From positions 1-44,246 of the forward strand of contig JAMFSE010000033.1 in the NCBI GenBank assembly GCA_026225115.1: 44,246 bases of DNA, read 5' to 3'. The notes beneath the pieces were generated by a model. That model did no database searches and was not told the origin of the DNA. It was given only the letters and a program-made list of their open reading frames with translations. Positions 2 through 12,347 of the stretch are shown here, piece by piece (the stretch's first letter is position 1; the number at the start of each line of letters is the position of its first letter). The position numbers and the translations under genes were made by a program. Source of the stretch: Rhodovastum atsumiense. GTDB lineage: Bacteria > Pseudomonadota > Alphaproteobacteria > Acetobacterales > Acetobacteraceae.

Positions 2-1138
2 ATCGGCCTGCACGGGCTGGCCATCGCCGATGCGGATCGCGCGGTTTCCTGGCTGCCCTTCTATCACGACATGGGCCTGGTCGGCTTTTTCTTGCTGCCG
101 ATGTGCTGCCAGTCATCTGTCGATATTCTGTCGCCGCGCGACTTCGCGCGCCGGCCCTTGATCTGGCTCAGCCTGATCTCGAAAAATCGCAGCACCACCG
201 CCTTCAGCCCGTCCTTTGGCTACGAATTATGCGCCAGGCGGGCCGAGACCGCCGACCTGAGCGATCTCGATCTTTCCAGCTGGCGCAGTGCCGGCATCGG
301 CGGCGACATGATCAGGCCCAGCGTGCTGAATAATTTCCTGGCGCGTTTTGAGCCCCACGGGTTCGGCTCCGGCGCCTTCGTGCCTAGCTACGGCATGGCA
401 GAGGCCACACTCGCGCTTAGCTTCACCCCGCCCGGCCGCGGCGCCAAACAGGTAACCGTGGATAGCGCGCTGCTCGAGAGTCGCCATCAGGCGCTGCCTG
501 TGCGCGACGCGACAAGCCGCGCGCGCAGCTTCGTGCGCTGCGGCTACCCATTGCCCGGCCATGAAATCGAGGTCCGGGACGAGCGCGGCGCGCCTCTGGC
601 CGAACGCCATGTTGGCCGCGTCTTCGCGCGCGGTCCGAGTCTGATGCAGGGATATTACGGCGCGCCTGCCGAGAGCGCGCTGGCCCTGACCCATGACGGC
701 TGGCTGGATACCGGCGATCTCGGATTTTTCGCCGATGGCGAGATCGTTATCTCCGGCCGCGCCAAGGATTTGATCATCGTCAACGGCCGCAACCTTTGGC
801 CGCAGGATCTGGAATGGACAGCCGAGGCCGAGCTTTCGCAGCTGCGATCGAACGATGTCGCGGTGTTTTCCGTGAATGGCGAGACCGACGAGGTTGTCGT
901 GGCGCTGGTGCAATGCCGGGCCGGCGATCCGGCGGCGCGCGCCGCCCTGTCGGGCGAAATCGGCAATATCTTCAGGGCAAGATACGGGGTTGAAGCGCGC
1001 GTCGTGCTGGTGCCGCCGCGCAGCCTGCCTTTGACCTCATCCGGCAAACTCAGCCGCAGCCGTGCCCGAAGCATTTACCTGGCAGGCGGATTTGCCGATA
1101 TCCGCGAAATAGCGACGGCGGGCGAAGCGGCGGAATGA
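2..1138 (+). CDS. Fatty acyl-AMP ligase / acyl-ACP synthetase, 5' end cut by window
   Basis: C-terminal part of an adenylate-forming enzyme; the frame is open to the window edge, so the true start lies upstream. The FAAL-type motif SWLPFYHDMGLVGF is at nt 47-88, SYGMAEATLA near nt 385, DTGDLGFFADGEI near nt 709, and KDLIIVNGRNLWPQDLE just after it. The C-terminal SSGKLSRS carries the usual catalytic lysine. Family members activate a fatty acid as acyl-AMP and pass it to an acyl carrier protein. The gene overlaps the next reductase by ATGA, and an ACP and a serine palmitoyltransferase lie nearby. This matches the acyl-ACP synthetase of the Caulobacter ceramide locus. A general FAAL feeding another lipid is the alternative. 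Family call firm, pathway inferred. Confidence 0.85.
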   Translation: MGLHGLAIADADRAVSWLPFYHDMGLVGFFLLPMCCQSSVDILSPRDFARRPLIWLSLISKNRSTTAFSPSFGYELCARRAETADLSDLDLSSWRSAGIGGDMIRPSVLNNFLARFEPHGFGSGAFVPSYGMAEATLALSFTPPGRGAKQVTVDSALLESRHQALPVRDATSRARSFVRCGYPLPGHEIEVRDERGAPLAERHVGRVFARGPSLMQGYYGAPAESALALTHDGWLDTGDLGFFADGEIVISGRAKDLIIVNGRNLWPQDLEWTAEAELSQLRSNDVAVFSVNGETDEVVVALVQCRAGDPAARAALSGEIGNIFRARYGVEARVVLVPPRSLPLTSSGKLSRSRARSIYLAGGFADIREIATAGEAAE

Positions 1139-2088
1139 TCGGCGGCCGATTGGTCGCGGTTACCGGCGCGTCCGGCTTTCTTGGCGCCCACATCATCACC
1201 TCGCTCAGCGCCGCCGGCGCCCGAATCCGTATTCTCCTCCATCGTCAGCCGCCGCATCCGCTCTGGCGGGATATGCCGGTGGAAATCATGACGGGAAATT
1301 TGATGGATGCCGCCGGCTGCGGCAGGCTGGTGGCAGGCGCCGATGCGGTTATTCACGCAGCGGGGCTGATCAAAGCGCGTAGCAATAAGGCCTTCTCGAA
1401 GGTCAACGGGCGCGGCACCGCCATTCTGGCGCAAGCGGTCCGAGACGTCGGGCCGGCCTGCCGTTTCGTACTCGTCTCCTCGCTGGCGGCGCGGGAACCT
1501 TCACTTTCCGCCTATGCCGCCAGCAAGCGGGAAGGCGAGCAGGCGGCGCGTGAAATATTTGCAGCAACCCCCGAACAACTTGCGATTCTTCGTCCGCCCG
1601 CAATCTACGGCCCGTGGGATCGCGAGACGCTGCCGTTCTTCAAAGCCGGAAGCAGCAAGGTGGCGCCGCTGTTTGGCGCCGGACACGCGGCGATCATGCA
1701 TGTTCAGGATGCGGCCAACGCGATCACGCAGGTTGCCCTGAACGATACGTGCTTCGGTTGTTATGCGCTGGCCGGGCCGGACCTTGCTGCCTTTAGCCCG
1801 CGGGAACTTGCGGAGGCGGTGGCACTTGCGGTCGGCGGCAATCCAATTCTGCTTCCGATGCCGGCCGCCGTTCTGCGCGCAGCCGGATCGATTTCCGGCT
1901 GGACGGCCAGGTTGAGCGGCCGCACCGTGATTTTCACGGCCGGCAAGGCCCGCGAACTCTTGCACCCGGATTGGACGGTGTCCAGGAACGAAGTCCTGCC
2001 TTTCAGCATATTTCAACCCTCCGTAAATCTGCAGGAGGGCCTGCGGAGAACCGTCGCCTGGTATAGAAACGCAGACTGGCTGAGTTAA
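1135..2088 (+). CDS. cerR: NAD-dependent epimerase/dehydratase, CerR-like ceramide reductase candidate
   Basis: An extended short-chain dehydrogenase of 317 aa. The Rossmann motif TGASGFLG is near residues 9-16, and the active-site pattern YAASK lies near residue 127, preceded by VLVSSLAA. The start ATG overlaps the stop of the upstream acyl-AMP ligase (ATGA), so the two are translationally coupled. In Caulobacter a protein of this class next to spt, acp and the acyl-ACP synthetase reduces the oxo group of 3-oxo-ceramide. The same neighbours occur here, so I infer the same role. The 3' end converges on the deacetylase gene: a single TTAA at 2085-2088 supplies TAA stops on both strands. A sugar-nucleotide epimerase role is the alternative. 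Confidence 0.75.
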   Translation: MIGGRLVAVTGASGFLGAHIITSLSAAGARIRILLHRQPPHPLWRDMPVEIMTGNLMDAAGCGRLVAGADAVIHAAGLIKARSNKAFSKVNGRGTAILAQAVRDVGPACRFVLVSSLAAREPSLSAYAASKREGEQAAREIFAATPEQLAILRPPAIYGPWDRETLPFFKAGSSKVAPLFGAGHAAIMHVQDAANAITQVALNDTCFGCYALAGPDLAAFSPRELAEAVALAVGGNPILLPMPAAVLRAAGSISGWTARLSGRTVIFTAGKARELLHPDWTVSRNEVLPFSIFQPSVNLQEGLRRTVAWYRNADWLS

Positions 2089-2837
2089 CCCAGCCGCCGG
2101 CCCGGATTGCGCAAGGGCGGCGGCCACCAGCGCAAACGGTCCGTATCCAATAACGACTCGCCTGTCAGCGTGCCGCCCGATGCCCCGGGCCGGGTTGCAT
2201 AAAGCGTCTCCGCAGCTGGCCATCGATGCAATCGGGTCCAGGTCCAGGCGCCCGCTTTCGCATAAACCTGCATCAATTGCCGTGCCTGTAAAACGCCCGG
2301 CGGTTGGAGGGCCCGCGCTGCCCAATGGATCTGCGCCGCCAGCTGCTGTGCCAGCGGTAAGCTCCGGCTGCTGACGTAATTTGAGAACCACAAGGTAAAG
2401 CCAAGCTCGGCCTGCAGCATGGCGACCGCGCGATACACCTGGAAATGCTCGGCATGGCCGTATTCGCCCCAGGGGTTATGCGTATAAACATCCCGGCAAT
2501 TCGCCAGGATCGGCCGCAGTGCGGCTACCAGACTTGAATAATTCGCCTCATAGCGCCGCCGCCCTTCGGCCTGGTTGATGGCGACGCCAAACCCGGTCAT
2601 CGCCGGCCGCGGCCAGTCCACGAAAAAACCCGCGCCGCTTTCCGGAATTTGCAAATCGATAAGCCCATCCAACGGCAAAGCCGCGACGGCCCGGCGCCGC
2701 GCAGCCGCCAGTCGTGGCCGTTGGAACGGATCGCCGTAACAGAAAACAATCCGCCCGGCTTTTGCCAAGGCGCTGCTCAGCCACAAAGCCTCGTCGTCAG
2801 GATGCGCGACGACGATCGCAATGCCGGGGTCGTTCAT
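2085..2837 (-). CDS. PIG-L/LmbE family N-deacetylase
   Basis: A 250 aa protein with the family's zinc-site signature AHPDDE at residues 11-16 and the second metal motif GHAEH at 127-131. Characterised relatives remove the acetyl group from GlcNAc-containing glycosides (MshB in mycothiol, BshB in bacillithiol, PIG-L in GPI anchors). The ATG overlaps the stop of the upstream GT4 glycosyltransferase gene by ATGA, a coupling that fits sequential glycosyl transfer and deacetylation. No signal peptide is seen, so it is probably cytoplasmic. Placed among sphingolipid genes, it may act on a glycosylated ceramide or its precursor. That substrate is inference, not something the sequence shows. Confidence 0.85.
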   Translation of the reverse strand: MNDPGIAIVVAHPDDEALWLSSALAKAGRIVFCYGDPFQRPRLAAARRRAVAALPLDGLIDLQIPESGAGFFVDWPRPAMTGFGVAINQAEGRRRYEANYSSLVAALRPILANCRDVYTHNPWGEYGHAEHFQVYRAVAMLQAELGFTLWFSNYVSSRSLPLAQQLAAQIHWAARALQPPGVLQARQLMQVYAKAGAWTWTRLHRWPAAETLYATRPGASGGTLTGESLLDTDRLRWWPPPLRNPGRRLG

Positions 2838-3958
2838 GCCTGCTCCAGAGCCTCGTCGTACAACGCTTCAAGCGCGCGCGTCTGGGTAACGAGATTGAAC
2901 TTCTGCTCCACCAGCGCCCGGGCGGCCGTGCCCATCCGCCGGCGCAGCGCATCCTCTCCCAGCAGCAGCGCAATCCGGGACGCCAGCCCCTCGACATCGC
3001 GCTCCGGCACCAGAAACCCGGTCTCGCCGTCAATGACGGCTTCTGGAATGCCGCCGATATCCGAGCCGATTACCGGTATTCCGCTGGCCCCCGCCTCCAG
3101 ACTGACCATCCCCAGACCTTCGACCCGCCCGGTTGAGGTTTGTACGCTGGGCAGCACCAGCATCGCCGCCTTGCGCATCCACGCCAGCACCTCGTCCTGC
3201 GGCAAGGCGCCAAGGAAGCGGACACGCCCCGCAATGCTGAGTGCCGCCGCCTCGGCTGCCAGCGGTTTCGCCAGCGGCCCATCGCCGATGATGACCAGTT
3301 CCGCCTGGGTCACCCCGAGCCTGGCAAAGGCGCGCAGCAGGTGCACGGTTCCCTTCACCTCCACCAGCCGGGCGACGTTCAGGATGATCGGCCTTTCCTC
3401 GGCAGGATCCCGCAGGCTGATGCGGCGGCAATCAACACCGATATAATGGGTTCGCACCCGCGCTGGCGGAAAACCCATTGCCAGCAATCGGCCGCGGATG
3501 AAGCCGGAGGCGCAAAGGAACAACGCGCCTTGCGCCGCCAGTTGCCGCCGGAACAGAGGATAATACGCCCAGGCCGGCGAGGTGAGCAGCGCCGCATTCG
3601 AGAGTGTCGCATCGAATCCGTGGAAGGTCGTTATCAGCGGCACGCCCAGCCTGCGGGCAAGCGGTAAAGCATGCGCGCCCTCAATGCCGAAATGCGCGTG
3701 CAGCAAGGCCGGCCGGTGTTGTCTCAGCAGCTTGAAAAAAGGCGAAGAACTGCGGCTTAACATCTGCCAGCCTGCGGCTACCTGCCAGCCGGTACCGCAA
3801 TCGGATAATGCCAGCGCCTCAGTACCAGGCGGCGCCGCCCCGTAGCGGATGCGGCCGAGAAAAACCGGTTTGAATTGCCGCAGTTCCATGGCCTGCGCGG
3901 CGATGAACGGCTCGGAGATTCGGAACAGATTGTGCCGGATAATCGCAACTTCCCGCAC
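2834..3958 (-). CDS. Glycosyltransferase family 4
   Basis: A GT-B-fold glycosyltransferase of about 374 aa. The N-terminal half has HAHFGIEGAHALPLARRL followed by TTFHGFD. The C-terminal half has the nucleotide-sugar motif EGLGMVSLEAGASGIPVI, with the E-x7-E spacing of GT4 enzymes. I chose the GTG at 3958 because GGGAG sits about seven bases upstream and homology begins there. The frame stays open to 4186, but that extension is arginine-rich, has no domain character and would run into the divergent DUF2141 gene. It is coupled to the PIG-L-type deacetylase downstream. Such pairs (MshA/MshB, BshA/BshB) build amino-sugar glycosides. The acceptor here is unknown; a ceramide is a reasonable guess from context. 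Confidence 0.85.
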   Translation of the reverse strand: MREVAIIRHNLFRISEPFIAAQAMELRQFKPVFLGRIRYGAAPPGTEALALSDCGTGWQVAAGWQMLSRSSSPFFKLLRQHRPALLHAHFGIEGAHALPLARRLGVPLITTFHGFDATLSNAALLTSPAWAYYPLFRRQLAAQGALFLCASGFIRGRLLAMGFPPARVRTHYIGVDCRRISLRDPAEERPIILNVARLVEVKGTVHLLRAFARLGVTQAELVIIGDGPLAKPLAAEAAALSIAGRVRFLGALPQDEVLAWMRKAAMLVLPSVQTSTGRVEGLGMVSLEAGASGIPVIGSDIGGIPEAVIDGETGFLVPERDVEGLASRIALLLGEDALRRRMGTAARALVEQKFNLVTQTRALEALYDEALEQA

Positions 3959-4089
3959 GTCCAACTCCCATCCCCGCCACCGCCGACGCTTAAACAACCG
4001 GTGCGCCGCCCGCAAGCCGGTTGCCAGTCCGGCGGCACAGCGGTACACGGCCCGGCGATCATGGCCGGAGCCTTTGCAAGTTGAACCTG

Positions 4090-4560
4090 ATGATGCGGCT
4101 ACTCGGCCTGACCCTGGTTTTGGGAATGGACTTCCATGCCGCCTCAGCCAAGGCGGTTGTCGCCTGTGATCCTGCCAATGCCGCACAGGTACGCCTGCAG
4201 ATAAGCGTGAGCGGTATGCGCACCACCCGCGGGCAGATTGTAATCGTGATCTATCCTGATATCGCCAAGGTATTTTTGAAAGACCGGTTTAAACTTGAAG
4301 AGCAGCGCCTAGCTGTGGTGCTGCCGGTAACAAAAGCCTGCTTCGTGGTGCCTGCCCCTGGCTATTACGCCGTGGCGTTATATGGCGATGTAAACAGCAA
4401 CGACCATTTCGACCTGACCGCCTTGGGCGTGCCGGCGGAAGGATACGGTTTTTCAAAAAACCCGCATCTATTTTTCGGACCGCCAAGCCTCGCGCGCGTA
4501 CGCTTTCCGGCCCATCCTGGCGACAATCCGATCGACGCCAGAATGTCGTATTATCCGTAA
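4090..4560 (+). CDS. DUF2141 family secreted protein
   Basis: About 156 aa. It begins with a hydrophobic segment and an AASAKA-type cleavage region, suggesting export to the periplasm. The mature part carries the DUF2141 pattern: RGQIVIVIYPD early, then APGYYAVALYGDVNSNDHFD and GVPAEGYGFSKN. Function of the family is unknown. The ATG at 4090 is followed directly by another at 4093. A TTG at 4081 with GGAG ten bases upstream is an alternative start. It is divergent from the GT4 gene with a gap of about 130 bp and converges on spt. Its position inside the lipid cluster suggests an envelope role linked to that lipid, but nothing in the sequence shows what it binds. Confidence 0.8.
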   Translation: MMRLLGLTLVLGMDFHAASAKAVVACDPANAAQVRLQISVSGMRTTRGQIVIVIYPDIAKVFLKDRFKLEEQRLAVVLPVTKACFVVPAPGYYAVALYGDVNSNDHFDLTALGVPAEGYGFSKNPHLFFGPPSLARVRFPAHPGDNPIDARMSYYP

Positions 4561-4561
4561 T

Positions 4562-4613
4562 CGCTAGCCACGGGCGCGCTAGCCGCGGGCGCGCTAGCCG
4601 CGGGCGCGCTAGC
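4562..4613. repeat. 15-bp tandem repeat covering the spt stop codon
   Basis: Three full copies and one partial copy of the unit CGCTAGCCGCGGGCG start at 4562, 4577, 4592 and 4607; the first has one substitution. Each unit holds two six-base palindromes, GCTAGC and CCGCGG. The last copy supplies the TAG stop of spt (4609-4611). Because the unit is a multiple of three, every copy would carry that stop in the same frame. The array lies between the convergent DUF2141 and spt genes. No T-tract follows, so it is not a classical terminator. Confidence 0.9.
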
Positions 4614-5841
4614 GGTGGGCCGCAGTCCGGCGGCCAGCCTTCGGCTCGGCCGGAATAAAATCCATGGCGCGGCCGATCTCGGCAAATAATCCCAGCGCGT
4701 AATCAATCTGCGCAGCCGTATGTGCAGCGCTGACGCTGGAGCGCAGCAGTGAAAGGCTCTTCGGGGTCGCCGGCGGCAGACTCACATTGGTGTAGAGCCC
4801 GGCATCTAGCAGTCTTTTCCAGAATTCGATTGCTGCCTGCGGTTCGGGCAGAATCACCGAAACCACCGGGCTTGGCTCCGGGCCAAGGCTGAAACCGAGC
4901 CCCTCAAGGCCGGCATAGAGCTGCCTGCCGCGATCGTTCAATTGCCGGCGTAGAACCGGCCGCGCGCGTAGCTGACGCAGCGCCTCGAGCGTGCCGGCAA
5001 CGTTGCCCGGCGGCGGCGAGGCGGTGAACATGTAAGGGCGGCAAGCCACCCTCAGCACATCGAACCCTTCCATATCGCTGACGCAATACCCGCCGACGCC
5101 GCCGAGACTTTTCGAGAAAGTTCCAACGATGAAGTCGACATCGGCTTCAACCCCGGCAGCCTCGGCCAGACCGCGGCCGGCATCGCCCAGCACACCCAGC
5201 GAATGCGCCTCGTCGACAATGAGATAGGCGCCCCATTCGCGCTTCACCGCCGCGAACTCGCGCAACGGGGCGCTGTCGCCCAGCATCGAATAAATGCCTT
5301 CGACGACGATGATCTTATCGCCGGGAACATCCGCCAGCCGGCGCAAACGCTGCGAGAGATCCTCCGGGCTGTTATGCCGGAAGCGGGTTACCTGCCCCTG
5401 GCCGAGCCGGGCGCCGTCGTAGATGCTGGCATGGCAATCGGCGTCGAGCAGCAGATGGTCGTTCTTGCCGGCAACTGTGGAGATGATGCCGAGATTGGCT
5501 TGGTAGCCGGTCGAGAACACCATGGCGTGCCGGCGGCCATAAAACTCCGCCAGACTCTGTTCCAAACGCTGATGCCCGTCATAGCTGCCATTCGCGATCC
5601 GCGATCCGGTGGTGCCGGTGCCGAATTTTTGCACCGCCTCGGCGCTTTTGGCGATGACGTCGGGATCATAGGTCAGGCCAAGGTAATTATTCGTCCCCAG
5701 CAACAGCGTCCGATGGCCGTTGATCACGGCCTCGGTCGGTGAGAGCACCTGGTCCAGAACCACGCTGAACGGGTTCGTGGCGGCCGCTTCGGCCTCCGCA
5801 TACTGCGCCGCCATCAAGCTGAACTTGTCGAGCAATGCCAT
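4609..5841 (-). CDS. spt: Serine palmitoyltransferase (alpha-oxoamine synthase family)
   Basis: A 410 aa PLP enzyme of the alpha-oxoamine synthase family, the usual length for a soluble bacterial Spt. Visible motifs are GTNNYLGLTYDP, GSRIANGSYDGHQRLE, DADCHASIYDGARL, the cofactor-ring motif VDEAHSLGVLG, and GTFSKSLGGVGGY with the predicted PLP lysine at residue 244. Relatives condense serine (Spt), alanine (KAPA synthase) or glycine with an acyl thioester. The choice of Spt rests on sequence character and on the ACP gene three bases upstream, a CerR-like gene and an acyl-ACP synthetase nearby, as in Caulobacter. The product would be 3-oxosphinganine. The stop lies inside a 15-bp tandem repeat. 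KAPA synthase is unlikely because no biotin genes are near. Confidence 0.88.
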   Translation of the reverse strand: MALLDKFSLMAAQYAEAEAAATNPFSVVLDQVLSPTEAVINGHRTLLLGTNNYLGLTYDPDVIAKSAEAVQKFGTGTTGSRIANGSYDGHQRLEQSLAEFYGRRHAMVFSTGYQANLGIISTVAGKNDHLLLDADCHASIYDGARLGQGQVTRFRHNSPEDLSQRLRRLADVPGDKIIVVEGIYSMLGDSAPLREFAAVKREWGAYLIVDEAHSLGVLGDAGRGLAEAAGVEADVDFIVGTFSKSLGGVGGYCVSDMEGFDVLRVACRPYMFTASPPPGNVAGTLEALRQLRARPVLRRQLNDRGRQLYAGLEGLGFSLGPEPSPVVSVILPEPQAAIEFWKRLLDAGLYTNVSLPPATPKSLSLLRSSVSAAHTAAQIDYALGLFAEIGRAMDFIPAEPKAGRRTAAHR

Positions 5842-5844
5842 TGC

Positions 5845-6096
5845 TTAAGCGTTGCTCAGGACATTATGCAGCGTTTCAACAAGATCGCCCAGGGTTTGCA
5901 CTTCCGCTATGCGGTCCAGGGGAACCGAGACGTTCAATTTGTCTTCAATTTCCATTACGAAGTCCATCACCGCCACGGAATCCAGGCCGAGATCGTTGGC
6001 GATATTGGTCTGGTCCGTGAGCTCGACAGGATGGCGCAGCAGTGAGCGCATGGTCTCGAAGATCACATCCCGAATTTCGCCCACCGAATTATCCAT
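5845..6096 (-). CDS. Acyl carrier protein dedicated to Spt
   Basis: An 83 aa acidic four-helix carrier protein. The phosphopantetheine site is LGLDSVAVMDF with the modified serine at residue 40; the usual DSL is DSV here. A purine-rich ribosome site (GAAGGCGAG) precedes the ATG, and spt follows after only three bases, so the two form an operon. It is clearly not the housekeeping ACP, which normally sits beside fabD/fabG/fabF. In Caulobacter a specialised ACP adjacent to spt supplies the acyl thioester for sphinganine synthesis, loaded by a dedicated acyl-ACP synthetase. The same arrangement of parts is present here. Role inferred from this synteny. Confidence 0.88.
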   Translation of the reverse strand: MDNSVGEIRDVIFETMRSLLRHPVELTDQTNIANDLGLDSVAVMDFVMEIEDKLNVSVPLDRIAEVQTLGDLVETLHNVLSNA

Positions 6097-6503
6097 GCTC
6101 GCCTTCGCCGTTGCAACCCGCCCATTTATCAGATTGCCCCGGCGGGCAAACTTCCAAATCGGTATCGGAATCCTTTATTAACAATAGCCTGCATTCTCTT
6201 TCGATCGTCGCAACTGGCGGCGAGCGCACGAATCCTTGGCAAAACATAAGCAGCGGCTCGCAGAGACTCGTTTCAAGTGACCCGCCTGGGGGACTGTCTC
6301 TAAAATGTAAACCGTCTTTTTGGCAAGTCGCGGGCCACAGTGCTGCCGCGCGCATGGGTGATAAATCCGTTACATTGACCCAAATCCGTCGTCTTTGTAG
6401 ACAGGCGCATGTTGAAATTGAATGCCCGGACGCCGGCGGCGCAGTGGCGCCGAGGCGGCCGCGGGGGCACATCCGGCGATCGCTTTCGCCGCGCGACGGC
6501 AAC
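6097..6503. other. Divergent intergenic region, acp-spt / lptF-lptG
   Basis: A 407-bp gap without a convincing gene separates the acp-spt operon from the divergent lptF-lptG pair. Open frames cross it in several directions, but they lack ribosome sites and domain character and are cut short by the true starts. The only element I can support is a sigma70-like promoter near 6375-6403. This is a natural place for shared regulation of the two operons. Confidence 0.6.
6375..6403 (+). promoter_or_regulatory. Candidate sigma70 promoter for lptF-lptG
   Basis: TTGACC (6375-6380) and TAGACA (6398-6403) are separated by 17 bases. This is a good match in the right orientation, with a predicted leader of about 95 bases before the lptF GTG. 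Recognised by eye only. Confidence 0.4.
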
Positions 6504-7589
6504 GTGACCGTCGGCCGCTACCTGGCGCGGGAAATCTGCAAGCCTTTTTTTGTCATTCTGGGCATTCTGGCGGCGTTGTTCGGCAGCTATTGCCTGGCAA
6601 GCGTTCTGGCCAGTGCCGTCGACAGCCTGCTGCCCGCCAGCGCGATCGTCGAGATCGTCGCGCTGAAATTGATGATCTCGCTTGAGGTCCTGATCCCGAT
6701 TTCGCTGTTTGCCGGCGTGGTCCTCGGCTTCGGCCGGCTCTATTCAGACTCCGAGATGACGGCCATGGCCGCGATCGCCATCTCTCCGCTGACCCAGTTG
6801 ACCGCCGTGCTGACCGTATCCGGCTATATGGCAATATGGGTCGCCGGCTTGTCGCTGCTGGGGCGCCCCTGGGCCTACCAGCAACTGGCCGCGCTGGCGA
6901 AAGCGGATGCCGCCATTTTCAACGTGAACGCAATGGCCGCAGGCACGTTCTACGCCGGACACGACAACGGCCGCATTATCTACCTTACGCGCCGGGACGG
7001 CGCCGATGCAAAGGCGCATGCGGTATTCGTCTGGATGAAGTACCCCGACCATATCGAAGTCATCGACGCCGATGAGGCGAACGCCCTCCCGTCCGCACAG
7101 TCTGGCAGCAACACCATGGTCGGGCTTAAAAACACGCATATCTACGATCTGGGCTATGCTGAGCCGGGTTCCGACCGGGCCGTAGATGCGCAGTCGATGA
7201 CGGTGGACCCCAGCGATGCGTCCATGCAGCCGCCCAAATATTCCACGGCCTCCATGAGCAGCGCCCGCTTGGCCGCCGCGGACAACCCAGGCACAAGCGC
7301 CGAATTGCAATGGCGGTTCTCGACACCGGTTTCAACCTTGCTGCTGGGACTCTGCGGCCTGCCGTTGAGCCGGGTGCGGCCGCGGCAGAGCCAATACGCC
7401 AAATTCGGTGCCGCGATCCTGATCTATTCGCTTTATTATCTGCTCTGCATGTCGGCCCGCAGCCTGGTCCAGCAGGGAATCATGCCGGGCTTTCCCGGCC
7501 TGTGGTGGGCGCCGGCGCTGTTGGCTACCGGCCTGTTGGCCGTTTGGTTTGCCCCCCTGCAGCGGCGCCGCGCCGCGCCGGCTTCATGA
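6504..7589 (+). CDS. LptF-like permease (LptF/LptG family)
   Basis: About 361 aa from the GTG at 6504. An N-terminal amphipathic stretch VTVGRYLAREICKPF leads into three membrane segments in roughly the first 130 residues. A periplasmic beta-rich domain follows (GTFYAGHDNGRIIYLTR), then three C-terminal membrane segments. This is the layout of the LptF subunit that, with LptG and the LptB ATPase, extracts lipopolysaccharide from the inner membrane. An upstream extension of the frame lacks membrane character and was excluded. It overlaps the LptG-like gene by ATGA. Neither pepA nor lptD, frequent companions of housekeeping lptFG, is nearby. The divergent neighbours are sphingolipid genes, so a paralogue serving another lipid is plausible. 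Confidence 0.75.
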   Translation: MTVGRYLAREICKPFFVILGILAALFGSYCLASVLASAVDSLLPASAIVEIVALKLMISLEVLIPISLFAGVVLGFGRLYSDSEMTAMAAIAISPLTQLTAVLTVSGYMAIWVAGLSLLGRPWAYQQLAALAKADAAIFNVNAMAAGTFYAGHDNGRIIYLTRRDGADAKAHAVFVWMKYPDHIEVIDADEANALPSAQSGSNTMVGLKNTHIYDLGYAEPGSDRAVDAQSMTVDPSDASMQPPKYSTASMSSARLAAADNPGTSAELQWRFSTPVSTLLLGLCGLPLSRVRPRQSQYAKFGAAILIYSLYYLLCMSARSLVQQGIMPGFPGLWWAPALLATGLLAVWFAPLQRRRAAPAS

Positions 7590-8650
7590 CGCGGCTCGAG
7601 CGCTACATCGCCTTCTGCGTACTGCGCGCCGTGTTACTGTCCGCGTCCGCACTGGTTGCGTTGTTCACCTTGCTGGAATTTGTCGATCAGCTCGGCGCGG
7701 TGGGGCAGGGGACATATACGCTCGGCGACGCGCTGATCTATGTACTGCTCACCATTCCGGCCCGGGTGATGCAAATCGCGCCGGTGGCAATGCTGCTCGG
7801 CGGCCTTCTCGGCTTCGGACTGCTCGCCCGGCAGTCCGAGCTGATCGTCATGCAAAGTCTTGGCTTATCGGCCGCTCGCATTGTCGGCGCGGTGGTGAAG
7901 CTCGCGGTGCCCGTGGTGATGGTATTATTCCTGAGTGCCGAATTTCTGGTGCCGCCGGCGCAGCAATTGGCGGAGTCCCGGCGGGGTGCTGCCATCGCCG
8001 GCGCTCCGGATTTAAATGTTGCCGGCTTCTGGGCGCAGAAGGACAGAAGTTTTTTATCCGTCCGTGGGCTGCACGGAAACGACCCGCAAGACATCAACAT
8101 CTACGACTTCGCAACCGATGGCAGCCTCATCAGCTCCACCCATGCCGCCACGGCAAAGGTTGAAGCCGGCGGCATCTGGCAGCTGCGCGGCGTGACTGAG
8201 GAGAATGTTGTGAATTCACAATTCAGCGTGCGGCATTTGACGCAGCTCGACTGGCCCGCTTTCATCAACCCGTCTGAAATCCGGCTGCTGATGCTCCCCC
8301 CCGATGCCATGCCGCCGCTTGCTCTGTTCAATTACATCGGCGTGCTGGACAGCCGGCATCAGCAGGCGACCCGCTACCGGCTGCAGCTTTGGGCAACTTT
8401 ATGCATTCCAGCCACGATGCTGGCGATGATCATGATTGCCGCCGCCTTCGTCTTCAACGCGGCGCGGGCGCGCAGCGCCGGCCAGCAGATCATCATCGGC
8501 GGAATCCTCGGTGTCAGCTTTCTCTTTATCCAGCAGATAACTGCCTATCTCGTCCTGATCCTGAATCTTGATCCGGCGCCGGCAACCCTGGCGCTTCCGC
8601 TTCTGTTATCGGCCGCTGCCTTGCTGCAATTTCGCCGGATGCAGCGCTAG
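7586..8650 (+). CDS. LptG-like permease (LptF/LptG family)
   Basis: About 354 aa starting at the ATG at 7586, which overlaps the stop of the LptF-like gene. N-terminal MTRLERYIAFCVLRAVLL leads into the first membrane helix. The conserved region FVDQLGAVGQGTYTLGDAL and the cytoplasmic-loop motif LGFGLLARQSELIVMQSLG, the expected contact with the LptB ATPase, follow. A periplasmic jellyroll domain lies near residues 140-260, then three more membrane helices. Both partners of an ABC permease pair are therefore present, but no lptB-like ATPase gene is in the window, so the ATPase would have to be shared with the main Lpt system or encoded elsewhere. Family call firm; cargo unknown. Confidence 0.8.
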   Translation: MTRLERYIAFCVLRAVLLSASALVALFTLLEFVDQLGAVGQGTYTLGDALIYVLLTIPARVMQIAPVAMLLGGLLGFGLLARQSELIVMQSLGLSAARIVGAVVKLAVPVVMVLFLSAEFLVPPAQQLAESRRGAAIAGAPDLNVAGFWAQKDRSFLSVRGLHGNDPQDINIYDFATDGSLISSTHAATAKVEAGGIWQLRGVTEENVVNSQFSVRHLTQLDWPAFINPSEIRLLMLPPDAMPPLALFNYIGVLDSRHQQATRYRLQLWATLCIPATMLAMIMIAAAFVFNAARARSAGQQIIIGGILGVSFLFIQQITAYLVLILNLDPAPATLALPLLLSAAALLQFRRMQR

Positions 8651-8733
8651 CAACGACAAAGCCTGGTTTGCATCAGCCTAATTTGTCCAGGGCCAAGGTT
8701 TCTGGCACGAATAAAAAAGGGGGGATTAACATC

Positions 8734-10107
8734 ATGTCATCGCAACCAGTCACCACCGGACGGCAGGCGTCACCGCTGGCCAGAATCACCGGCGCATTTG
8801 TGTATATGTTCGAACGTCTGCTACCGGAGCCGTTTGTTTTTGCCGTTCTGCTGACGATACTAACCGCCGTTCTGGCCGCGATCTTTGCACCGAAACACAG
8901 CCTGCCGGAAATACTCACCGGCTGGTACGGCGGTATTTTCCAGATTTTTCCTTTCGCCTTCCAAATGGTTCTGATTTTGGTCACCGGCTACGCGCTTACC
9001 AGTTCGCGCCCGGTTTCAGCGGCGTTGAAAATACTGGCGACGCTGCCGAAAACGCCGGCGCAGGCAGTCGCACTTACCGTGGTGGTGGGTATGGTAACCG
9101 TACTCCTGAACTGGGGGTTCGGCCTTATCGCCTCAGCCGTATTCGCGCGCGAGATCGCCAAGCGGCACCGGCTGGATTTTGCCTGGCTGCTGGCCGGCGC
9201 CTATAGCGGCTTCGTGATGTTTCCGCCCGGGCTTTCCAGCTCGATCGCGCTGGCGCAGGCAACCCCCGGCTCGGCGCTCAACATCGTGCAGAAGCTGACG
9301 GGCAAGCTGATCCCCCTTAACGAGTCGCTTTTGGTACCCTTCAACTATGTGCCGGTGATTATCCTGTTCGTCGTGCTGCCCTTCCTGTTCAGCCGCATGC
9401 AGCCGCCGGATGCGGAAATGCAGCCGGCGGATCAGAGCAGGCTGGAAGCGGAGGACGCGCCGGTCGCGCGGCCGCTGACCATCGGCTTCGGCGGCATGCT
9501 GGACCGCGCCTGGATCCTGAACATCATTCTGGTGGCGGCGGCCTTCGGGTTTCTCGGCATGGAAATGGCCCACGGCACATTCCACCTCGACATCAACTCG
9601 GTGATCCTGATTTTCCTCTCACTCGGTCTGCTGTTGCACTTCACGCCGATCGCCTATGTCGAGGCGATCAACAGCGCCGCGCGCGTCACCGGCTCGCTGC
9701 TGCTGCAATACCCCATCTACGGCGGGATCATGGGCATCATGACCGCCACCGGCCTCGCCGGCGTCATCGCGGAATGGTTCCTGGCATTCTCGACCACGCG
9801 CACTCTGCCGTTCTGGGGCTATATTTCTTCCATCATCATCAGCATTTTCGTGCCCAGCGGCGGCGGCCATTGGGCCGTGCAGGGGCCGTTCATCGTGCCG
9901 GCAGCGGTGGCGCTGCATGTCAATCTGGCAGCCGTGGCCCAGGGCGTCGGCTATGGCGAGGGCGTGGCCAACATGATCCAGCCGTTCTGGGCGCTGCCGC
10001 TGCTGGCCATCGCCGGCATCGGCATGCGCCGGGTGATGGGCTTTACCGTCATCACGTTTTTCGTGTCCTTCGTGGTGTTCGGCGCGTCGATGTTGCTTTT
10101 GGTCTAA
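8734..10107 (+). CDS. AtoE-family short-chain fatty acid transporter
   Basis: A polytopic membrane protein of 457 aa resembling AtoE/TIGR00366 short-chain fatty acid permeases. Features are FVYMFERLLPEPFVFAVLL near the N-terminus, LNWGFGLIASAVFAREIAK, and the conserved C-terminal PSGGGHWAVQGPFIVPAA. The start at 8734 has a strong purine-rich site (AAGGGGGG) about nine bases upstream; the same frame is open earlier without one. It opens a run of acyl-CoA metabolism genes, which fits import of a short or branched carboxylic acid for their use. The exact substrate cannot be read from sequence. It is the first gene after lptG, with an 83-bp gap, and may have its own promoter. Confidence 0.85.
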   Translation: MSSQPVTTGRQASPLARITGAFVYMFERLLPEPFVFAVLLTILTAVLAAIFAPKHSLPEILTGWYGGIFQIFPFAFQMVLILVTGYALTSSRPVSAALKILATLPKTPAQAVALTVVVGMVTVLLNWGFGLIASAVFAREIAKRHRLDFAWLLAGAYSGFVMFPPGLSSSIALAQATPGSALNIVQKLTGKLIPLNESLLVPFNYVPVIILFVVLPFLFSRMQPPDAEMQPADQSRLEAEDAPVARPLTIGFGGMLDRAWILNIILVAAAFGFLGMEMAHGTFHLDINSVILIFLSLGLLLHFTPIAYVEAINSAARVTGSLLLQYPIYGGIMGIMTATGLAGVIAEWFLAFSTTRTLPFWGYISSIIISIFVPSGGGHWAVQGPFIVPAAVALHVNLAAVAQGVGYGEGVANMIQPFWALPLLAIAGIGMRRVMGFTVITFFVSFVVFGASMLLLV

Positions 10108-10145
10108 TAGTTAGACGATAAGGGGGAAAACGACAGGAAGAACCC

Positions 10146-12347
10146 ATGCGGCTTGAGCCGAGTGACGACCAGAAGATGATGCTGGAAAGCTTTGCGCGTT
10201 TTCTCAACGCGGAAAGCTCCATGGCGCGGGTGCGGGCGGCTTTGCCCGTCGGCTTCGACAAGCAACTCTGGACCGGTCTGGCTGAACTTGGCGCGCTTGC
10301 CATGCGCGTTCCTGAAAGTGCGGATGGGCTTGGGCTCGGCCTGTTCGACGCAGCGCTTCTCATGGAAGAGGCGGGGCGCACTCTGGCCTCCGGCCCGCTG
10401 GCTGAAACCATGGTTGCCGCCCGGCTGCTTTCCTTGAGCGACCCGGAAAACAAAACCGGCCTGCGCGACGCCGTCGCCGCCGGCGAGACCGTGATCACCC
10501 TGGCGCTGTTTGATGCCGCAACCTCGCCGATTCAGCTGGTTCCGGGGGGTGCTTGCGCTAACGCGGTCATCTTCCGCAAAGCCGATGAGATCCGGCTGAT
10601 CGCCAATCTGACCCCGGCAGGCGCCGAGCACACAATCGCTTCCACGCCGATCGGCCGCCTGCATTTGGCCGAGGCAGAATCCATCCTGCTGGCCACAGGG
10701 CCGCAGGCCGGCGCGCTGTTTGCGGCGGCGCTGGAGGAGTGGAAGCTGCTCATGGCGGCCGCCCTCATTGGGCTCGCCGCCGAGGCCATCCGCCTCGCCG
10801 CCGCCTATGCCTGTGAGCGAACCCAGTTCGGCCGGGCCATCGGCGGCTACCAGGCCGTCTCGCACCCGCTCGCTGCCCTGATCGCGGAGGTCGATGCCGG
10901 GCGGCTGATGATCTGGCGGACCATCCGCGACATCGCCGATGGCGCGCCGCTGGCTGCCGCCGGCATTTCCACATCCCTCTGGTGGGCCAGCACCACCGCC
11001 GAGAAAGCCGTGGCGCAGGCGCTGCACACATTCGGCGGCTACGGCTTGACGCTGGAATACGACATCCATCTCCACAATCTGCGCGCAAAAGCCTGGCCGC
11101 TGGTGCTGGGCGACCCGAACCGGCTGCTGGATGAGGCTGCCCGGCGGCGCTATGCGGGCGCCGCGACCACGCTACCTGAGCCCGGCCCGGTCAGCATCGA
11201 TTTCGACCTGGGCGATGACGCCGAGACTCTGGCAGCCGAAGTCCACGAATTTTTCCGCAAAAACATCACCCCGGAACTGCGCGCCAAGGCGCATTACTCC
11301 TGGTCAGGCCATGACGCCGGCATCCACCGCAAACTCGCCGAGGCAGGGCTGTTGTTCCTGGCCTGGCCGAAGGAAGCGGGCGGCCGCGGCGCCAGCCGTT
11401 ACGCGGTCGAGGCAGCACTTGAGGCCTGGCATGACAACGAATGGACGGTACACCCGCAAGGCACCGCGAATATCATCGGCTATGTCATGCAACGTTTCGG
11501 CTCCGATACGCTGAAATCCGAAGTCCTGGCCAAGGTCGCCGCCGGCGAGGCAACCTGCTGTCTCGGTTTCAGCGAGCCGCATTCGGGCTCGGATGTGTTT
11601 GCCGCCAAAACCCGTGCCACGCCCGATGGCGATGGCTGGCGGATCGACGGCCAGAAGATGTTCACAACCGGTGCCGAAATCGGCGACTACGTCATCCTGC
11701 TCACCCGCACCGACCCGACCGCCGTCAAGCATCACGGCCTGACCATGTTCATCGTGCCGTTGAAGGCGCCGGGCGTGACTGTTCAGGCAGTGCCGACCTT
11801 CATGGATGAGCGCACCAACATCACCTATTACGACAATGTCTATGTACCGGACGCCTACCGCCTCGGGCCGGCCGGCGGCGGCGCCGGCGTGATGGCCGCC
11901 TCGCTGGAGATCGAGCACGGCATATCCTTCAAGAAACACCACCGCCATATGCTGCGCTCGGCTGAACGCTTCTGCGGCACGACGCTACGGGATGGCCACC
12001 CAATGATCGAGGAGCCGGCAGTGCAAGCCAGGTTGGCCCGGGTTGCCGCCAATGTCATGGCTGCGGACGTGCTGCATTTCCGCGCCATCTGGGCGGCCGA
12101 GGCGAAGAAGCCGGTGCCGGCCGCGGGGCCGGCCTCGAAAATGTTCTCCTCGGAGGCCTACCGCGCCGACTCTCTCGACCTGCTCAACATGACGGCGCCG
12201 GAATCTTTGGCTTTCGCTTCCACCGAGGCCATCGACATCAACCAATGTTTCCGCCACGCCCAGGTCGCAACCGTTTACGGCGGCACCACGGAGGTGCATC
12301 GCAGCATGATTGCCGAGAAACAGCTTGGCCTTCCGCGTACCCGCTGA
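10146..12347 (+). CDS. Double-domain acyl-CoA dehydrogenase
   Basis: At 733 aa this is about twice the usual length: two acyl-CoA dehydrogenase units in tandem. The first (about residues 1-330) has CERTQFGRAIGGYQAVSH and TFGGYGLTLEYDIH. The second (about 345-733) has the complete set: CCLGFSEPHSGSDVFAAKT, DGQKMFTTGAEIGDY and the C-terminal YGGTTEVHRSMIAEKQLGLP. Such proteins introduce an alpha-beta double bond into an acyl-CoA using FAD. Fused or paired dehydrogenases are typical of steroid side-chain and other bulky acyl-CoA substrates. The N-terminal unit looks more divergent and may be structural. A good ribosome site (AGGAAG) precedes the ATG. It sits between an acid transporter and a CmcJ-type oxygenase gene. 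Confidence 0.88.
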   Translation: MRLEPSDDQKMMLESFARFLNAESSMARVRAALPVGFDKQLWTGLAELGALAMRVPESADGLGLGLFDAALLMEEAGRTLASGPLAETMVAARLLSLSDPENKTGLRDAVAAGETVITLALFDAATSPIQLVPGGACANAVIFRKADEIRLIANLTPAGAEHTIASTPIGRLHLAEAESILLATGPQAGALFAAALEEWKLLMAAALIGLAAEAIRLAAAYACERTQFGRAIGGYQAVSHPLAALIAEVDAGRLMIWRTIRDIADGAPLAAAGISTSLWWASTTAEKAVAQALHTFGGYGLTLEYDIHLHNLRAKAWPLVLGDPNRLLDEAARRRYAGAATTLPEPGPVSIDFDLGDDAETLAAEVHEFFRKNITPELRAKAHYSWSGHDAGIHRKLAEAGLLFLAWPKEAGGRGASRYAVEAALEAWHDNEWTVHPQGTANIIGYVMQRFGSDTLKSEVLAKVAAGEATCCLGFSEPHSGSDVFAAKTRATPDGDGWRIDGQKMFTTGAEIGDYVILLTRTDPTAVKHHGLTMFIVPLKAPGVTVQAVPTFMDERTNITYYDNVYVPDAYRLGPAGGGAGVMAASLEIEHGISFKKHHRHMLRSAERFCGTTLRDGHPMIEEPAVQARLARVAANVMAADVLHFRAIWAAEAKKPVPAAGPASKMFSSEAYRADSLDLLNMTAPESLAFASTEAIDINQCFRHAQVATVYGGTTEVHRSMIAEKQLGLPRTR

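Follow-up and report, generated by a model that had tools for sequence, protein, structure and literature searches.

How far can a bacterial ceramide locus extend beyond the synthesis of ceramide, and which lipid does it finally deliver? The question is raised by a 44,246-nucleotide stretch of Rhodovastum atsumiense DNA (contig C74, positions 1-44246, of genome G000, which comprises 3.67 Mb in 149 contigs), hereafter the window, where genes of a Caulobacter-type ceramide pathway are interleaved with a GT4 glycosyltransferase, a PIG-L-type de-N-acetylase and an LptF-LptG-like permease pair. The window appears to hold half of a module, about 13-17 genes in size, that would make a glycosylated inositol-phosphoryl-ceramide and export it. 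With moderate confidence, we read this module as a pathway to glucosaminyl-inositol-phosphoryl-ceramide, that is a bacterial glycosyl-inositol-phosphoryl-ceramide (GIPC) following the logic of glycosylphosphatidylinositol (GPI) anchors, with an Lpt export pair of its own.

We infer the structure and destination of the lipid, the substrates and the order of steps from the observed gene content, co-occurrence, co-location, enzyme classes, motifs and LptF2/LptG2 clades. AasR would load a fatty acid onto the acyl carrier protein AcpR, the serine palmitoyltransferase Spt would condense the AcpR-bound fatty acid with serine, and CerR and a ceramide synthase (CerS) would complete dihydroceramide. Ino1 would provide inositol-3-phosphate, from which a cytidylyltransferase would make CDP-inositol, and a CDP-alcohol phosphotransferase would transfer inositol phosphate to ceramide, yielding inositol-phosphoryl-ceramide (IPC). 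The GT4 enzyme may then put N-acetylglucosamine (GlcNAc) on the inositol, and PIG-L may deacetylate it to glucosaminyl-IPC, which would amount to the first two GPI-anchor steps on a ceramide-based inositol lipid. In many relatives, a GT32-type and a second GT4 glycosyltransferase may attach more sugars, and flipping of the lipid may be the work of a Wzx-like protein. The last step, delivery to the outer membrane, would fall to LptF2-LptG2, which probably rely on LptB and the remaining components of the lipopolysaccharide (LPS) bridge.

A module split between two contigs

A preliminary description of the window had named nine genes, and all nine were confirmed by domain or model matches within the first 8.65 kb (2..8650):

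2..1138, + strand: aasR, acyl-ACP synthetase / fatty acyl-AMP ligase, 3' part (PF00501); the contig begins inside the gene
1135..2088, + strand: cerR, NAD(P)-dependent reductase (PF01370); next after aasR in relatives
2085..2837, - strand: PIG-L/LmbE-type de-N-acetylase (PF02585, 25.8 bits for a cut-off of 28.2; motifs)
2834..~3955, - strand: GT4 glycosyltransferase (PF00534/PF13439)
~4090..4560, + strand: DUF2141 protein, probably a secreted beta-sandwich, optional member (PF09912)
4609..5841, - strand: spt, serine palmitoyltransferase (NCBIfam NF047599, 654 bits, cut-off 500)
5845..6096, - strand: acpR, dedicated acyl carrier protein (PF00550)
~6456..7589, + strand: lptF2, second LptF-like permease (TIGR04407, 239 bits, cut-off 230)
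7577..8650, + strand: lptG2, second LptG-like permease (PF03739)

The top NCBIfam model of the truncated AasR is the fatty acyl-AMP ligase NF006624, at 556 bits against a cut-off of 600. The GT4 reading frame is open to 4186, and its start was taken at a GTG near 3955 in agreement with homologues. Overlaps of 4 bases link PIG-L to GT4 and aasR to cerR, lptF2 and lptG2 overlap by 13 bases, and spt lies 3 bases from acpR. The serine palmitoyltransferase, and the dedicated acyl carrier protein and acyl-ACP synthetase that accompany spt in Caulobacter-type ceramide synthesis, are present here, and the gene types bear out the earlier assignment of the synthetase, CerR, Spt and the carrier protein to the Caulobacter ceramide genes.

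Since the window has no sequence before its first base, the search for its upstream neighbour turned to the other contigs and led to C86 (locus L097). On the minus strand, bases 1-621 of C86 encode AasR residues 1-205 as aligned to an intact relative, and the part in the window aligns to residues 210-570 of the same relative; from this sequence alignment, both contigs very probably join inside aasR. Their ends share no exact sequence overlap. C86 carries the inositol genes as well as a GNAT-like CerS candidate (7272-8402), located about 7 kb from the shared aasR break, the preliminary description having supposed that a ceramide synthase could be just upstream; GT32 and the second GT4 sit in between. 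The candidate scores 23.5 bits with PF00583.

The intact arrangement is visible in relatives. Among 38 genomes of the genus, the Spt search was positive in 21 including that of the window, and the regions around the other 20 were mapped. Their common order is second GT4, Wzx-like flippase, PIG-L, GT4, spt, acpR, lptF2, lptG2, CDP-alcohol phosphotransferase, NTP transferase, inositol-3-phosphate synthase, GT32, aasR and cerR, followed by the CerS candidate where the sequence extends that far and also by a fatty acid hydroxylase in G068 and G102; locus L087 has the core genes in a different order. In these loci acpR always adjoins spt (20/20), GT4 does so in 19/20 and PIG-L comes next in 18/20, the exceptions L085 and L090 being contig ends, and the phosphotransferase is found in 17/20. 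The second GT4 and GT32 occur in 12/20 loci each and the flippase in 10/20, with one more flippase on L069. As all three are unmatched in L081 despite coverage of their usual stretches, they look like optional members.

Inositol phosphate, ceramide and the two sugar enzymes

The block between lptG2 and aasR in relatives encodes Ino1 (PF01658), an NTP transferase (PF12804) and a CDP-alcohol phosphotransferase (PF01066). By comparison with loci L153 and L154, the trio of the CDP-inositol type of inositol-lipid cluster (inositol-3-phosphate synthase, NTP transferase and CDP-alcohol phosphotransferase) is present together in the module. The NTP transferase best matches inositol-1-phosphate cytidylyltransferases (NCBIfam NF041135, E 2.9e-33, below the cut-off of this longer two-domain model) and, in the PDB, 2xme (E 3.4e-17). 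The phosphotransferase keeps the CDP-alcohol signature DxxDGxxAR...GxxxDxxxD in 17/17 aligned sequences. The preliminary description had proposed a glycosylated ceramide transported to the outer membrane; this outline stands, but it missed the inositol-phosphate head group. Because the trio belongs to the same module, a plain hexosaminyl-ceramide is the less likely product.

In PMC9246714, an alternative inositol-lipid cluster of Bacteroides is predicted to consist of MIPS, an NTP transferase, a CDP-alcohol phosphotransferase and a HAD protein, with a CDP-inositol route proposed and unconfirmed. IPC is known in Bacteroides, according to PMC8791184 and PMC9246714, and the latter also describes Novosphingobium acidiphilum as having an IPC-like lipid and neither cluster. 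In a plasmid collection, the phosphotransferase of G490, a genome of another family, retrieved five records at 24-36% identity, from Bacteroides, Parabacteroides (2), Prevotella and Sphingomonas, and three of them were opened. Near the phosphotransferase homologue, the Bacteroides finegoldii plasmid has an inositol-3-phosphate synthase, an NDP-sugar synthase and a HAD protein, and on that of Parabacteroides distasonis the NDP-sugar synthase and HAD are present and the inositol-3-phosphate synthase is missing. On the Sphingomonas parapaucimobilis plasmid NZ_CP155750.1 (L153), phosphotransferase, inositol-3-phosphate synthase and NTP transferase lie together at 8974-11641, and neither GT4 nor PIG-L is annotated within the 18.7 kb viewed. 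This plasmid trio might explain the inositol-phosphate-ceramide-like lipids of sphingomonads.

The inositol lipid might be based on diacylglycerol, as a glucosaminyl phosphatidylinositol (PI) found beside spt only as a fellow outer-membrane lipid; PIPS and archaetidylinositol-phosphate synthase are indeed among the phosphotransferase profile matches, and Bacteroides produces both PI and IPC, as stated in PMC9246714. We consider this unlikely, in view of the near-strict co-occurrence with Spt and CerS described below and of phosphotransferase homologues adjoining inositol genes in Bacteroides and Sphingomonas, groups known for sphingolipids.

The two sugar enzymes can be assigned to their classes from several lines of evidence. 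PIG-L has the HPDDE motif, the second histidine motif (GEYGHxEH) and the fold of PIG-L/LmbE de-N-acetylases: both motifs are invariant in 20/20 aligned homologues, the structural model reaches a pLDDT of 91.6 and its 15 Foldseek matches at E<=0.001 are all de-N-acetylases. With the PIG-L profile, the sole PDB matches were three sequences of MshB. The EX7E motif of GT4 is invariant in aligned homologues, and its profile first retrieved 2jjm, 3mbo and 5d00, then 3c4q and 3c48, with 129 and 121 bits for BshA and MshA structures; 5d00 is labelled as a BshA enzyme, and we take 2jjm and 3mbo to be BshA and 3c4q and 3c48 to be MshA. MshA and BshA transfer GlcNAc, after which a PIG-L-type deacetylase acts (MshB in the case of mycothiol).

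This resemblance, together with mycothiol_INO1 being the best model of Ino1 (427 bits, cut-off 638), would also suit a soluble mycothiol-like thiol built by Ino1, GT4 and PIG-L on glucosaminyl-inositol. Such a product is very improbable, and we rejected it as MshC is above cut-off in 0/38 genomes of the genus. Sub-threshold MshC matches in 35/38 of them, with and without Spt, and in 13/14 controls (one above cut-off) are taken to be CysS. Moreover, we know of no place in mycothiol biosynthesis for a cytidylyltransferase, a membrane phosphotransferase, spt or LptF2-LptG2.

A more serious competitor would have GT4 and PIG-L act directly on ceramide to give hexosaminyl-ceramide, with the inositol trio making a separate IPC in the same block. 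Consistent with this, acpR, spt, GT4 and PIG-L form a run on one strand, apart from the trio, and direct glycosylation of ceramide is described for Caulobacter and sphingomonads in PMC13318209. Against it, all 19 genus genomes with PIG-L carry Ino1 (18 in full, G110 as a contig-edge fragment), and the strong PIG-L and phosphotransferase matches fall in the same 3 genomes of a class-wide sample, among the matches listed. Such co-occurrence would not be needed were the branches separate, and MshA and MshB, a pair that acts on inositol, are among the structural relatives of GT4 and PIG-L. Direct action on ceramide is therefore rather unlikely, and glucosaminyl-IPC remains our preferred product.

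Distribution and probable export

The module genes follow Spt closely in the genus. In a clean set of 23 genomes (>=90% complete, <=5% contaminated), 13/23 carry Spt, PIG-L, LptG2 (E<1e-60), Ino1, the phosphotransferase and the CerS candidate together, and 0/10 of the others carry any of them. Over all 38 genomes, Spt occurs in 21, PIG-L in 19, each with Spt (0/17 without a found Spt), and the phosphotransferase in 20, again each with Spt. Ino1 is found in 22 (21 with Spt, that of G110 being the fragment, plus G111), LptG2 in 21 (20 with Spt plus G111) and the CerS candidate in 22 (all 21 Spt genomes, G131 with a contig-edge fragment only, plus G121); G111 and G121 are 81% and 80% complete. 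Uncorrected for kinship, Fisher's test gives p = 8.7e-7 in the clean set and 1.2e-8 over the 38 genomes. A chance neighbourhood was rejected on these co-occurrence and co-location counts, which uphold the expectation that GT4, PIG-L and LptF-LptG would accompany spt in relatives.

Spt was found in 31/100 genomes of the family sample; in the 30 loci besides the window (up to about 10 kb on each side of spt, often ended by a contig edge), PIG-L occurs in L039 and L040 and is unmatched in the other 28. In a class sample of 385 genomes, where at most 6 or 7 candidates were scored per genome and misses are possible, the phosphotransferase was found, among the matches listed, in 3/385; these 3 also have PIG-L, which turned up in one more genome as a weak partial match without module genes nearby. 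G490 matches 17/17 module queries in the same order, and G383, from outside the family, matches 11 on a short contig. Nitrospirillum amazonense has 12/17 (Ino1 as a fragment) and an Elstera metagenome-assembled genome 11/17, on contigs of 12.3 and 11.4 kb. Among 29 further loci, only L099-L102 combine spt with GT4 and PIG-L, L102 being probably the same record as G112:C34. An inositol synthase about 6 kb from spt in L067, a family member (G021, 2128-3363), was rejected as part of the same module, its trio partners being unmatched: neither cytidylyltransferase nor phosphotransferase matched at E<=1e-5 in the locus, nor by Pfam in the 8/12 open reading frames scanned. A methyltransferase adjoins the inositol-3-phosphate synthase there.

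DUF2141 behaves differently from the core and was rejected as a fixed member of the module: it is absent from 19/19 loci of genus relatives covering the GT4-spt interval and present in all 7 mapped module loci from other genera or families. It lies between GT4 and spt in the window, L039, L099, L100, L101 and L136, adjoins spt in L091, a contig that stops short of GT4, and stands between lptF2 and GT4 in L135. Its presence near spt in family loci L041, L045 and L051, where PIG-L and the inositol genes are unmatched, suggests that its association with sphingolipids may predate the module. The protein has a hydrophobic N-terminus, and its model (pLDDT 84.8) has no PDB match at E<=0.001; a role as periplasmic helper is a guess.

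Module LptF2 and LptG2 each form one clade (18 rows, SH-aLRT 100), separate from the other LptF and LptG of the genus (14 rows each), in a tree retaining 100/113 rows (after removal of one truncated row and of 12 rows from six genus loci), where branches between groups are long and possibly joined by long-branch effects. In 36/38 genus genomes (not G125 and G129) a further LptG gives a weaker match and is taken to be the canonical one. The LptFG pairs near spt in 18/28 other family loci, those searched and entered in the tree, have clades of their own. In PMC11324152, Caulobacter CC_1168, CC_1156 and CC_1155 are named LptC2, LptF2 and LptG2 and proposed as phosphosphingolipid carriers, the route of bacterial sphingolipids to the outer membrane being stated as not known. 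The Lpt part of the earlier idea is thus already published for Caulobacter, and the head group is the new part.

Could the pair carry another cargo, such as an LPS variant, and be a neighbour by chance? LptFG substrates are unreadable from sequence, which leaves room for this explanation, and yet we find it quite unlikely. LptG2 (E<1e-60) is present in 20/21 Spt genomes of the genus, the mapped stretch of the exception, G110, ending in lptF2, and in 1/17 genomes without a found Spt, namely G111, which also has Ino1. The recurrence of LptFG near spt in the family loci and the same adjacency published for Caulobacter (PMC11324152) point the same way.

The Lpt genes also inform on the history of the block. 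The other LptF/LptG of G000, on C51 (L139), group with those of Spt-free genus members (14/38 genomes in the tree), and its LptF2/LptG2 and its concatenated block fall beside blocks from other genera and families. Whole-block transfer into the window's genome is possible on these groupings; the concatenated tree, having no root, would also fit a single origin within the genus. A broader proposition is more tentative, and we lean slightly towards doubting it: some Alphaproteobacteria would assemble a full outer-membrane glycolipid of the GIPC/GPI type, bearing at least one sugar on glucosaminyl-inositol-phosphoryl-ceramide, with CDP-inositol as intermediate in place of the eukaryotic IPC synthase reaction, and would keep a dedicated LptF2-LptG2 to export it, the block being passed between families as a unit.

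Several points weigh against the glucosaminyl-IPC pathway. The PF02585 score of PIG-L is under the Pfam cut-off, and its Foldseek TM-scores are just 0.42-0.54. The top NCBIfam model of GT4 is the PEP-CTERM/XrtA glycosyltransferase TIGR03088 (124.5 bits); BshA (115) and MshA (97) come after it, and none of the three scores is near its cut-off. From the GT4 sequence, neither sugar donor nor acceptor can be told. For the phosphotransferase, diacylglycerol could be the acceptor in place of ceramide. No HAD family was seen among the module proteins scanned with Pfam, the rest of the genome not being sought, and the module was accordingly not filed as the alternative (CDP-inositol) inositol-lipid cluster. 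No spare gene of LptC2 size appeared between the L078 module genes by inspection without an LptC model, LptC2 elsewhere not being sought. Lastly, shared descent accounts for part of the co-occurrence, and the Fisher p values overstate independence for that reason.

Two further genes of the window lie outside the module: a short-chain fatty acid transporter (PF02667) at about 8728-10107, and a 733-residue open reading frame at 10146-12347 that by eye resembles two fused acyl-CoA dehydrogenase-like halves.

Comparison with known systems

The ceramide genes and the CDP-inositol trio are each known or predicted elsewhere. Their union in one block with GT4/PIG-L and a second LptF-LptG is undescribed in the literature found, and no report of a bacterial glycosylated inositol-phosphoryl-ceramide emerged from open-access titles and the beginnings of abstracts; a similar search on the sphingolipids of Azospirillum or Nitrospirillum, limited to what open-access records display, led nowhere. 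If the pathway is true, a single compact block covers everything from acyl-ACP through export, and bacteria too arrived, via different chemistry, at the hexosamine-inositol-phosphate-ceramide head group found in plants and fungi. Nitrospirillum amazonense is culturable, and its block makes it a test organism for sphingolipid transport to the outer membrane and for CDP-inositol as a bacterial IPC precursor.

One close parallel is Caulobacter crescentus CC_1168-CC_1152, which by gene type has the same ceramide genes (aasR, cerR, acpR, spt and, for the candidate on C86, putatively cerS) and an LptF2-LptG2 pair. The two regions differ in the head group, for which Caulobacter has ceramide kinase and phosphoglycerate genes and the module has the inositol trio, GT4 and PIG-L, and in LptC2, which is present in Caulobacter and was not seen by inspection in the L078 module. 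A similar trio makes up part of the Bacteroides alternative inositol-lipid cluster (PMC9246714). That cluster differs by its HAD protein, unseen among the scanned module proteins, whereas here spt, the ceramide genes, GT4, PIG-L and the Lpt genes share one block.

GPI-anchor synthesis starts with the GT4 enzyme PIG-A and PIG-L, and mycothiol synthesis employs MshA and MshB. In the module, too, a GT4 and a PIG-L-type deacetylase would act in series, probably on inositol; the likeness to PIG-A is one of pathway. Unlike in both systems, the proposed acceptor is inositol-phosphoryl-ceramide, and MshC is not above cut-off. Hexosamine-inositol-phosphate-ceramide occurs in plants and some fungi, whose glycosyl-inositol-phosphoryl-ceramides are of the same class as the product proposed here. 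The routes to IPC would nevertheless be distinct, through CDP-inositol in these bacteria and, to our knowledge, through AUR1-type exchange with PI in plants and fungi.

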